From positions 2,790,001 through 2,854,000 of the forward strand of contig NZ_JAUSYS010000001.1 in NCBI RefSeq assembly GCF_030817015.1: a stretch of 64,000 bases of DNA, given 5' to 3'. Positions 40,843 to 57,367 of this stretch are shown piece by piece (position 1 is the stretch's first letter; the number at the start of each line of letters is the position of its first letter). This DNA comes from Arthrobacter sp. V1I7 (GTDB taxonomy: Bacteria; Actinomycetota; Actinomycetes; Actinomycetales; Micrococcaceae). The notes beneath the pieces were generated by a model. That model saw nothing but the letters and a program-made list of their open reading frames with translations. It ran no database searches and was not told the DNA's origin. The position numbers were made by a program, and so were the translations under genes.

Positions 40843-41031
40843 GCCTGCGTCCTTTCATTTTCCGGGTGTTCGGGTGTTCGCTGCGCTGCCGCGCGGTCCG
40901 TTTCTTAATCCAGATCCCCATCCGCGCCTACCCTGCGCCCGCCTGGCTCCGGGGAAGTGAGCCAGGTGAACACCGGATGGGCGGCTGGAGATCTCGGTCA
41001 AGAAGCGTGCCGTGCTGGTAATCGCCGGGGT

Positions 41032-54399: not shown

Positions 54400-54415
54400 C
54401 TGGGATTGTTCCCAG
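54400..54415 (+). terminator. Short hairpin next to the IS110 insertion point
   Basis: CTGGGA (54400-54405) and TCCCAG (54410-54415) with a TTGT loop. The insertion core follows at once. Before insertion it would have lain between two convergent genes. Confidence 0.5.
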
Positions 54416-54429
54416 CTGATATGAGTTGA

Positions 54430-54537
54430 GTTGTTCCTTCACAAACACCTCCGGAGATGCCAGAAGGGAAGTATCAGATTCCTTTGAGGATCTGGCGCTG
54501 GGCCGTGGGATCCTCCTGTCACTTTCCGGAGGTGGAG
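54430..54537 (+). ncRNA. Candidate IS110 bridge RNA
   Basis: The IS110 left end folds into an outer 10-bp stem (54446-54455 with 54525-54534) enclosing two hairpins: 54464-54470 with 54479-54485 (loop GTATCAGA), and 54486-54492 with 54509-54515 (16-nt loop). Loop 1 contains TATCAG, complementary to CTGATA at the element's left boundary (54416-54421), and GCCAG (54459-54463) matches the right boundary. The outer stem also pairs with the transposase ribosome site. Family knowledge (IS110 bridge RNAs) supports the reading; boundaries and function are inferred. Confidence 0.5.
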
Positions 54538-55764
54538 ATGATGTCTCTTGATGTTGCTGTGGTGCGGGCGCCAACGGTTGTTGTTGTTGCTGTCGATGTG
54601 GGAAAGTCGACGGTCGCGTTGTCGGTCACGGGCGCAGATCGCCGGCGTTTGCTGGGTCAAGTGGATTTTAAGATGACAGCGCCGGGGCTTGAGGCAGTTC
54701 TGGCACGTGTCCGCCGCGTGCTGCCCGTTGCCGGGGCCCTGGTCAAGGTGGGGATAGAGGCTGCAGGCCACTACCATCGTCCTTTGCTGGCACCGTCTGC
54801 ATGGCCTGCCGGGTGGGAGGTACTGGAGCTGAATCCGGCACACGTCGCCGAGCAACGGCGTGTCCAGGGCAGGCGCAGAATCAAGACCGATGCGATCGAT
54901 CTTGAGGCGATCACCGAGCTGGTACTCGCCGGCCGCGGGGTTCCGGTGCGGTCCCGGGAGCTGGTCATCGGTGAACTGGCTGCCTGGTCCGCGCATCGGA
55001 GGCGACGGGTCCAGACCCGGACTGCCACGAAGAACCAACTGCTGGGCCAGCTGGACCGCTGTTTCCCAGGGCTTGGCCTGGTTCTGCCCGATGTGTTGGG
55101 CACCAAGGTCGGCAGGTTCGTCGCGGAACACTTTGCCGATCCGCACAGGCTGGCGGCCCTGGGCGCCGGCCGGTTCATCCGTTTCGCGGCCGTCCGGGGA
55201 CTGCAGGTGCGACGGCCGGTGGCGGAAGGGCTGGTCACGGCCGCACGGGATGCGTTGCCAATGCCTGACGCTGCCGTCGCCAGGGAGGTTTTGGCCGCGG
55301 ATCTGGTGTTGTTGTCGGACCTGGACGCCCAGGTAACGGCGGCCGAGGCGGCGATGGCCGCGTTGCTGCCCCGTAGTCCTTTTGCCACGCTGATCACGGT
55401 CCCCGGTTGGGGAACGGTCCGGGCCGGGAATTACGGTGCCGCCGTGGGCGACCCGCACCGCTGGCCCGGACCGTCTCAGGTCTATCGGGCCTCAGGGCTG
55501 TCTCCGATGCAGTACGAGTCCGCCGGCAGGCGCCGGGACGGTTCCATCAGCCGCGAAGGCAGCGTGACCCTGCGCCGGGCGCTGATCGACCTGGGCATTG
55601 GCCTATGGCTCTGCGACGGGCCCAGCCGCGCCCACGCGGCCGCGTTGAAGGAGCGTGGGAAGAACGGTGGCGTCGTCGCCTGTGCGATGGCGCACCGTGC
55701 CAACCGGATCGCCTACGCCTTGGTGCGTGACCAGACAGCCTACGACCCCGCGCACTGGGCCTGA
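54538..55764 (+). CDS. IS110-family transposase
   Basis: Recombinase of the RuvC-like DEDD type with a C-terminal serine domain. I start it at ATG 54538, where GGAGGTGGAG lies just upstream; a longer frame from 54457 would include the structured left end. It is 408 residues: VAVDVGKST near 17-25 (first Asp), a Glu in IEAAGHYH, RRRIKTDAIDLEAI (Asp pair), then the transposase_20 domain with VPGWGTVRAGN, SGLSPMQYESAGRRR and SREGSVTLRRAL (candidate catalytic serine). It is intact. Codon use resembles its neighbours. Confidence 0.93.
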   Translation: MMSLDVAVVRAPTVVVVAVDVGKSTVALSVTGADRRRLLGQVDFKMTAPGLEAVLARVRRVLPVAGALVKVGIEAAGHYHRPLLAPSAWPAGWEVLELNPAHVAEQRRVQGRRRIKTDAIDLEAITELVLAGRGVPVRSRELVIGELAAWSAHRRRRVQTRTATKNQLLGQLDRCFPGLGLVLPDVLGTKVGRFVAEHFADPHRLAALGAGRFIRFAAVRGLQVRRPVAEGLVTAARDALPMPDAAVAREVLAADLVLLSDLDAQVTAAEAAMAALLPRSPFATLITVPGWGTVRAGNYGAAVGDPHRWPGPSQVYRASGLSPMQYESAGRRRDGSISREGSVTLRRALIDLGIGLWLCDGPSRAHAAALKERGKNGGVVACAMAHRANRIAYALVRDQTAYDPAHWA

Positions 55765-56259
55765 GCAAACCCCCAGGCTTTCCCGGATAGCTGCCGGCCG
55801 CACCGCGGCGTACGGAGCGGTCAACGTGGAGCGCCCGCAGCGCAGCGAGGACGAACGACGTTGACAGCGACAAGCCGCGGCGCACGATCATGGCGGCCCG
55901 GAAAGCCAGCGCCCGGTCCGGATCGATCAAGGAGGTGCCCGGAAGCCCTTCACAACCCGGCTCAGCGGTGAGACGCTGGAACCGACGAAGGGCCGGATCA
56001 GACGCCGTTTCCGCTATGGCGGACGCTTCACGCGTTACGCCGAGGCTAGCTTGGCGCCCGGCCCTTCGCCCATGGCAGCAGCCCGAACGACGCCAGATGA
56101 CCCTGTACACACAGAGGCCGCATAAGTCAGCGTGGGCGCTGCCCCATCCCTCGACGTCGGGCCCCAGCCGCAAACCGCAAGCCACAGCACAAAAGCCGCC
56201 GCCGCGTCACCGAGGAGGCACTGCCGCATGCCCGACGATGCTATTGACAAGACCTATAG
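55765..56259. other. Long non-coding right end of the IS110 element
   Basis: About 495 nt with no convincing gene on either strand; a minus-strand frame of about 200 codons here shows no domain. TTGACA motifs occur near 55861 and at 56244-56249. The second is the predicted -35 of the circle-junction promoter. Confidence 0.5.
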
Positions 56260-56263
56260 CCAG

Positions 56264-57367
56264 CTAGCCGTGCATGCGGCTGCTGACCCGGGACAGGTCC
56301 GCGGCCCCGATCAGGCCGGCGTTCGGACCGAGTGCAGCGAGTTCGATCCGCGCCGCCGGACGGAACCCTCGTCCGGTCAGGTTCCTGGCGAAGGCCTTCC
56401 GGGCCGGTGCCACGAGCAGTTCGCCGGCGTCGCAGAGTCCGCCGCCAATGACGAATGTTCCCGGATCCAGCGCGGCGGCCAGGTTGGCCAGGCCCAGCCC
56501 GAGCCACTCGCCGACGTCTTCAAGGAGCTCGCGCGAGGTGGGATCCCCGGCCTCGGCCAGATCCGTGACGATCACCCCCGTGATGCTGTCCACCCGGCCG
56601 TCCACGACCTTAAGCAGCTCCTGGGCCACCGGCGAGTTGGCGGCCGCCAGCTCGCGTGCCTCCCGGCCGAGCGCATTGCCGGAGGCGTACTGTTCCCAGC
56701 AGCCGCGGTTGCCGCATTCGCACCGGTGGCCGCCCGGCAGAATGACCTGGTGGCCGAATTCCCCCGCCACGCCGAAGCGGCCGCGCTCCAGCCGACCGTC
56801 CATCACCATCGCGCCCCCGATGCCGGTGCCGAGCGTGATGCAGACCAGCCGGTTCTCTCCCCGCCCGGCCCCGAAGCGCCACTCGGCCCAGCCGGCTGCA
56901 TCGGCGTCGTTGGTCAGCAGCACGGGGCGGCGCAGCAGCCGCTGCAGATTGTCCCGCAACGGCTCATTGCGCCAGGCCAGGTGCGGGCTGAACAGCACCG
57001 TCCCGCCGTCGAGGTCCATCCAGCCAGCGGCGCCGATCCCGACCGAGCGGATCCGGTGCCCCCGGCCCAGTTCCTCGACGAGTTCCACGATGACCTGTTC
57101 CACTGCCCGGGGGTCATTGCCCGGGGTGGAGCGCTTGGCCTGGCTCAGGATCCGGCCCTCGGCGTCCACGACCCCCGCGGCCACCTTGGTGCCGCCGATG
57201 TCCACGCCGATGGCGAGACCCTTCCGCCCCAGCCTCAGGTGCTCACGCAGCCCCTGCCCCGCGGCCGTTCCACCGGTCCCGCCGCCCGCACGGTCAAGGG
57301 TCCGTCGCCGCCAGGCGGCAGGCCTGCGGTAGGGGGCGGGGTGCGGGCCGGGCATCGGTGTGTGCAT
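56264..57367 (-). CDS. glk: ROK-family ATP-dependent glucokinase
   Basis: Phosphorylates glucose with ATP. The 367-residue form starts at ATG 57367; the first 45 residues are a proline/arginine-rich extension. It has GVDIGGTKVAAGVVD (phosphate loop), NDADAAGWAEWRFG (sugar site), TLGTGIGGAM and the zinc motif CECGNRGCWEQ. The IS110 element ends at its stop codon without disrupting it. With ppgK this window holds two unrelated-donor glucose kinases. Confidence 0.94.
   Translation of the reverse strand: MHTPMPGPHPAPYRRPAAWRRRTLDRAGGGTGGTAAGQGLREHLRLGRKGLAIGVDIGGTKVAAGVVDAEGRILSQAKRSTPGNDPRAVEQVIVELVEELGRGHRIRSVGIGAAGWMDLDGGTVLFSPHLAWRNEPLRDNLQRLLRRPVLLTNDADAAGWAEWRFGAGRGENRLVCITLGTGIGGAMVMDGRLERGRFGVAGEFGHQVILPGGHRCECGNRGCWEQYASGNALGREARELAAANSPVAQELLKVVDGRVDSITGVIVTDLAEAGDPTSRELLEDVGEWLGLGLANLAAALDPGTFVIGGGLCDAGELLVAPARKAFARNLTGRGFRPAARIELAALGPNAGLIGAADLSRVSSRMHG

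Follow-up and report, generated by a model that had tools for sequence, protein, structure and literature searches.

A candidate right-end bridge RNA and a conserved, putative left-end leader RNA in an actinobacterial IS110-family element

The analysed window, a 64-kb stretch of the Arthrobacter sp. V1I7 genome, contains a whole IS110-family element in which a transposase/recombinase gene lies between a structured left end and a structured right end (Table 1). The element boundaries are confirmed by three identical copies in the source genome, whose flanks set the left limit just before CTGATATGAG and the right limit at GCCAG. Each junction carries CT, and every one of the three sites continues with AGCC on the right before the flanks diverge. 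A first-pass annotation of the sequence had correctly recognized the element and its ends (CTGATA at 54416-54421 and GCCAG at 56259-56263). Insertion at a short core without a longer target duplication, a trait of the IS110 family, is seen in all three copies. Genomes of the same genus carry the locus without the element. In two of the five uninterrupted same-genus loci that were aligned (L072 and L073), the join reads CCCTGCTAGCTGTGCAT, giving CCCTG-CT-AGCTGTGCAT compared with CCCAG-CT-AGCCGTGCAT for the joined flanks of the window copy; the other three loci (L070, L071 and L074) have gaps or additional bases at the join.

Table 1. Features of the IS110-family element, in window coordinates.
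Feature	Position	Strand	Basis or remark
Whole IS110-family element, 1,848 bp (CT core counted once)	54416..56263	+	Three identical copies with differing flanks; uninterrupted homologous loci in same-genus genomes
CT core dinucleotide, left junction	54416..54417	+	Flanks of the copies; core agreement across elements
TATGAG, -10-like promoter half	54420..54425	+	Completed if ends join
Putative three-way-junction leader RNA, left end; begins CTTCACAA	54437..54533	+	Conserved
Outer stem of leader, 5' arm CACCTCCGGA	54446..54455	+	Faces Shine-Dalgarno sequence
Outer stem of leader, 3' arm TCCGGAGGTG	54525..54534	+	Includes Shine-Dalgarno GGAGG (54528-54532)
Transposase/recombinase gene, 408 aa	54538..55764	+	DEDD and Transposase_20 domains
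Hairpin motif between transposase gene and bridge RNA	55814..55885	+	Common to other actinobacterial plasmid loci
Right-end bridge RNA, candidate	55946..56139	+	Conserved region; modelled core 55985-56139
Predicted left-target guide TTTCC-G-CT (positions -6 to -2, -1, core)	56008..56015	+	
Predicted right-target guide AGGCTAGC, reverse complement of GCTAGCCT	56043..56050	+	CTAGCC after junction at all three sites
Predicted left-donor guide GCCAG, same as right end before core	56092..56096	+	By inspection; weaker than other guides
Predicted right-donor guide GCATAAGTCAGC, discontiguous complement of element start GCTGATATG	56120..56131	+	
TTGACA, -35-like half of junction promoter	56244..56249	+	
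CT core, right junction	56264..56265	+	Flanks of the copies; core agreement across elements

The encoded protein matches Pfam DEDD_Tnp_IS110 (94.2 bits) and Transposase_20 (43.7 bits), both above the cut-offs, and NCBIfam NF033542 (152.6 bits; cut-off, 140). Among solved structures it matches the recombinases of IS621 (E = 1.9e-17) and ISCro4 (E = 6.1e-14). Residues D20, E74, D118, D121 and S328 are invariant across 17 proteins and align with the IS621 chain, in an alignment whose N-terminal stretch is weak (13.2 bits); we take them to be the DEDD residues and the C-terminal catalytic serine, with roles as in IS621. Both the domains and the DEDD/serine residues of the IS110 family are thus present. 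A protein search at E 1e-100 across 401 genomes of the family around G803 returned G803 itself as the sole match, and 27 pattern matches in viral contigs included no relatives.

Conservation downstream of the transposase gene was an unexpected first clue to a right-end RNA: a degenerate relative in the same genome is 72% identical in the aligned pieces of the gene, compared to 86% over 210 nt on its 3' side. The stretch 3' of the gene is also conserved in other relatives. RNAalifold analysis of 25 sequences yielded 43 pairs forming two stem-loops with internal loops, with 17 pairs changed on both sides, and a covariance model built from those sequences (R1) matched 26 of 29 sources at E 1e-8. 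In an alignment fitted to the model itself, 98.3% of 1,116 cells are paired, compared to 32 to 42% when partners are slid by one to three columns. On four of five covariation measures, none of 500 shuffles equalled the real alignment; on the fifth, further pair types, 34 of 500 did. An element from a Rhodococcus plasmid (transposase 58% identical), which was not in the model and is the most distant in the alignment, scored 69.7 bits; the distant relatives L065, L068 and L045 matched weakly (41.8, 23.5 and 23.3 bits) and were excluded from guide counts. Of 50 sources in a broader set, 14 gave no R1 match at E 0.1, most of them holding a partial transposase gene. The four of these that were read (L023, L040, L042 and L058) contain neither the right-end stem nor the TTGAC...GCCA end: L042 and L058 are fragments of the gene, L023 continues into other and masked DNA, and L040 into unrelated sequence. 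With stricter filters, R1 was found in its own genome only at E 0.001 among 396 genomes of the order, and the single Rfam match in the window at gathering cut-offs was the unrelated mraW.

The first internal loop of the right-end fold contains five variable bases 5' of GCTATGG and three variable bases 5' of CTAGC, and these vary with the DNA into which each element is inserted. For example, L043 has guide CGTGAGCT and flank CGTGAG-CT, L029 has guide TGACCGCT and flank AGACCG-CT, and the guide complement of L030 is GCTAGTCG where its right flank reads CT-AGTCG. Across 25 elements, of which 23 had a left flank and 24 had a right flank, left-target guides agreed with their own flanks at 71.7 of 115 variable positions, compared to 36.5 ± 4.7 when guides were re-dealt among elements, and right-target guides at 42.3 of 72, compared to 25.2 ± 3.05 (about 3.1); in neither case did any of 20,000 shuffles reach the observed value. 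The 25 elements carry 22 different left-target guides. L036 (an ambiguous nested insertion) and L045, L065, L067 and L068 (misfits to the pattern) were excluded before counting, for L044 and L037 the flanks or ends were placed manually using the alignments, and additional copies of the window element and of L024 were retained, each as another site of that element. A blind scan of every variable right-end column against every variable flank position gave 5 of 2,648 tests above z 4. Four of these peaks lie in the guides in collinear register (RT+3, z 5.8; LT-2, 4.8; LT-3, 4.8; LT-4, 4.1), and the one outside them pairs column 8 of the right-end alignment with LT-2 (z 4.06).

Agreement at individual sites is partial. 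At the three sites of the window copy, two to three of the five left positions match strictly and four to five with wobble. Five right flanks read after the test (L114 to L118, two of which belong to the L022 element) agree strictly at +3 in two cases and at +4 in one, and with the core triplet in all five; the three copies of L024 match their right guide at 3, 0 and 1 of three positions. The poor agreement at +3 and +4 in the later flanks, as in the L024 copies, suggests that the right guide tolerates mismatches. For L119, a 64.6-bit match, no guides were obtained by pattern.

The second internal loop carries the predicted donor guides, so that the two-loop RNA holds guides agreeing with both halves of the target and of the donor, the left-donor guide by inspection. 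In IS621, too, the target loop precedes the donor loop and the core is CT. The triplet formed by position -1 and the core is GCT in 19 of the 25 elements, GTT in 4 and ACT in 2, and in every readable cell it is the same in the left-target, right-target and right-donor guides, the right end and the left flank (L021, L035 and L009 each have one unreadable cell, and the right-donor guide of L009 has one further change). Recognition of donor and target by a common rule would demand such agreement, although few of the triplet changes are independent, given that the four GTT elements may be closely related. Taken together, the fold and its guides make it highly likely that the bridge RNA is encoded at the right end, at about 55946-56139, with a target loop followed by a donor loop. 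Joining the ends brings TTGAC and TAT together across an 18-nt spacer in 21 of the 22 elements examined (the exception is L048); this would complete a promoter from which transcription would start just before the left-end RNA. Junction promoters at joined ends are reported in the IS110 family (PMC11187229 and PMC11208160).

The left end folds into exactly the 10-bp outer stem enclosing two hairpins that the first-pass annotation had described, with a z-score of -4.6 in the window copy and no equally stable structure among 200 shuffles. Left ends were gathered from 37 loci of a genome contig scan, plasmid loci L020 and L067 and genome matches L009, L011 and L012, some loci having no left end, and the paired stems are conserved in these relatives. 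When 33 leaders, that of the window among them, were folded to minimum energy, the GGAGG preceding the start codon paired with a 5' CCTCC in all 33, a count that is partly built in because the pattern used to pick the leaders contains both stem arms (L067 was added by hand; L022, a misfit, was not folded). Exactly two inner hairpins are present in 32 of the 33, and these are paired nearly throughout, without large internal loops. Free-energy z-scores of five leaders range from -5.3 to -9.0, and compensatory changes affect 8 of 24 pairs, so covariation is modest. The most fitting reading of the left-end RNA is as a 5' leader on the transposase mRNA, with an outer stem that would lower translation of the recombinase. 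It recalls ISPpu9, in which the transposase mRNA 5' UTR has a fold that likely includes the ribosome-binding site, and a small RNA is encoded downstream in the sense direction (PMC8450116). The likeness lies in the predicted fold and in the placement of the downstream RNA.

The first-pass annotation had instead placed the bridge RNA in the left end, with a donor loop first and a target loop second. Its broader expectation that the element uses a bridge RNA is very probably right, and the stable left-end fold, its short matches to the element ends and the left-end position of the IS621 bridge RNA (PMC11208160) all made this placement plausible. TATCAG (54472-54477) is indeed complementary to CTGATA, but it occurs in only 6 of 33 left ends, although nearly all start CTGATA or TTGATA; loops lacking it differ despite near-identical element ends, and L048 retains it even though that element starts CTGATC. 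GCCAG (54459-54463) does match the right end. GCTGGG (54497-54502) is complementary to CCCAGC, but this is the flank of just one copy; in the remaining two, identical in sequence, the core is preceded by CCCCG and TTCAG. When the left end was shuffled 5,000 times by mononucleotides, 6.7% of the shuffled sequences contained some 6-mer complementary to the element's first 12 nt, 40% some 5-mer of its last 12 nt, 49% some 6-mer match to a flank in either sense and 1.5% TATCAG itself; the short left-end matches to ends and flanks are therefore not clearly more than chance. A blind scan of left-end columns against flank positions gave a best z of 3.07, with none of 2,126 tests above 3.5. Left-end loops thus track neither ends nor targets across relatives, the very outcome that the annotation had named as refuting its reading. 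Since the hairpins are also almost fully paired and the right end holds a full guide set, the left-end fold is very probably not the bridge RNA, and we regard a left-end bridge RNA as exceedingly improbable. The apparent reversal of loop order disappears with it, because in the right-end RNA the target loop precedes the donor loop.

A division of labor, in which target reading falls to the right-end RNA while its left-end counterpart supplies a donor guide or docks on the recombinase as a second RNA, could explain why both RNAs are conserved and why many of each begin with CTTCACAA. The hairpin-1 loops would fit as well, being GTCAAA in the GTT elements L024, L027, L031 and L044 and GTCAG in L043, L046 and L055. 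However, those four GTT elements may share their loop through close kinship, left loops vary widely among elements with the same ends, and L023 and L039 start GTTGATATAG yet have the loop TGTAAGT, not GTCAA. The idea was demoted on finding that the right end carries donor guides too, including a right-donor guide following the core, and we consider it very unlikely. It is also unlikely that the left-end fold works as DNA, through recombinase binding or strand structure. Its palindromic stretches and its position adjoining the element end would suit such a role, but all 33 folded leaders have the Shine-Dalgarno sequence in their 3' arm and some of the pairs are compensatory or G-U, as suits RNA. 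Pairing in trans between leader and right-end RNA was set aside: in 22 elements the duplex energy of own pairs averaged -82.4, compared to -79.9 ± 0.9 for re-paired ones (p = 0.0024), a signal that shared base composition could cause.

The two RNAs do share their first nucleotides. The window contains CTTCACAA at two places, 54437 and 55948, where the two RNAs begin, and the motif is absent from the other strand. Exact copies are present in 17 of the 33 leaders and in 21 of the 25 right-end RNAs, and CTTC in 32 and 25, respectively. A profile of the right-end 5' region scored a mean of 4.2 bits on the 33 leaders, compared to 0.93 ± 0.27 on 60 shuffled sets and 0.73 on reverse complements. Without the first 10 nt the score falls to 0.89 compared to 0.84 ± 0.31, so the likeness rests on the common motif; in the best-scoring leaders it spans 28 nt. 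We speculate that the leader mimics the entrance of the bridge RNA, so that the recombinase or a bridge-RNA handler could bind the transposase mRNA and shut off translation, which could happen when free bridge RNA is scarce or the enzyme is in excess. This is unlikely, but if true, an RNA-guided recombinase would regulate itself via a look-alike of its guide RNA.

We place the probability that the right end encodes a guiding bridge RNA and the left end a leader that buries the Shine-Dalgarno sequence at roughly 80%. By this account, the element would move as an IS110-type circle, and its DEDD recombinase would bind, and be guided by, a bridge RNA encoded 3' of its own gene. During recombination the first internal loop would read the target, TTTCCGCT matching the left flank and AGGCTAGC complementing CTAGCC on the right, and the second would read the joined ends, with GCCAG before the core and GCATAAGTCAGC against GCTGATATG. 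Joining of the ends would also form the promoter from TTGACA on the right and TATGAG on the left, with a start just upstream of the leader, whose outer stem would sequester the Shine-Dalgarno sequence and keep recombinase translation low.

IS110 elements mostly carry their RNA in the left end and IS1111 elements in the right (PMC11208160). The two groups also differ in the order of their target matches, two longer non-coding regions occur in 26 of more than 350 insertion sequences, and some IS110-group elements have a downstream non-coding region (PMC11187229). Like IS621 (PMC11208160), the element described here has two stem-loops with internal loops, a discontiguous right-donor guide, a joined-end promoter, a left guide that matches the bottom strand and a right guide that matches the top strand. 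Unlike IS621, its RNA is predicted in the right end and not the left, its transposase has 408 aa, and its left end holds a leader that buries the Shine-Dalgarno sequence. A guide RNA 3' of the transposase gene is instead found in the IS1111-group seekRNAs of ISEc11, ISKpn4 and ISPa11, and ISEc11 likewise has a promoter from joined ends (PMC11187229). In contrast to the IS1111 order described there, in which the top-strand complement comes before the bottom-strand match, the bottom-strand match comes first here (56008-56015 precedes 56043-56050), as in the IS110 group and its member ISEc21; the transposase also exceeds the 330 to 350 aa reported for IS1111, and the left end is long and structured.

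The element therefore appears, from its sequence, to combine an IS1111-like RNA location with an IS110-like guide order and a structured leader, a combination not found in the titles and abstracts that the literature searches returned (bioRxiv preprints and most subscription journals lay outside the coverage). It would represent a lineage of actinobacterial IS110 elements in which both ends hold structured RNA, a bridge RNA on the right and a leader over the recombinase start on the left. The 25 elements, with 22 left-target guides and three triplets with matching changes, are a ready set for tests of core and target reprogramming, and they also lend themselves to experiments on how such elements keep their recombinase in check. 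A further implication is a caution: a stable fold at an IS110 end with short matches to the ends may not be the bridge RNA. Eight of the 25 elements were inspected by eye for subterminal inverted repeats of the IS1111 type (7 to 17 bp); the candidate repeats are imperfect and have a one-base offset, as with TATAGATCGAGT and TGTAGGTCGAGT in L030, and are poor in the window copy.

CTTCACAA stands at the 5' starts of both RNAs of the IS110-family element, the folded leader upstream of the transposase gene tnp (window position 54437) and the predicted bridge RNA downstream of it (55948), and occurs nowhere else in the 64-kb window on either strand. The element has a degenerate relative in its own genome (L009, C1:1257800-1260400), in which the gene is broken into pieces; despite this fragmentation, the right-end RNA of L009 is well preserved (158 bits).

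A hairpin motif lies between tnp and the bridge RNA and had no match in Rfam at the gathering cut-off. Its outer stem reads GUCAACGU/ACGUUGAC in the window compared to AUCAAGGU/ACCUUGAU in locus L018, with both arms changed, while the interior is constant. Matches to the motif at 78-96% identity were found in 26 actinobacterial plasmid records. The window's IS110 element was present in none of the five contexts read besides locus L021, and an IS110 transposase gene lay <500 nt from the motif in two of these five (L018 and L120).

Coordinates of the hairpin motif and of a further RNA in the window
Feature	Window position	Strand	Details
Hairpin motif	55814-55885	+	GTCAACGT ... ACGTTGAC around GGAGCGCCCGCAGCGCAGCGAGGACGAACG; between tnp and bridge RNA
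mraW leader RNA (RF01746)	40892-41010	minus	53.3 bits

In locus L036, two left ends follow in close succession (2248-2372), an arrangement that looks as though a member of the window element's family had landed inside the left end of a second one. L036 was excluded from the comparison of guides and flanks across 25 related elements. Two distant relatives, L045 and L068 (38-39% identical), each have the same kind of coding stretch directly upstream, as if they shared a common target. By our own reading, this stretch, upstream of tnp, encodes GGEGAKFS followed by a stop, an ending that we take to be typical of IS256-type transposases.
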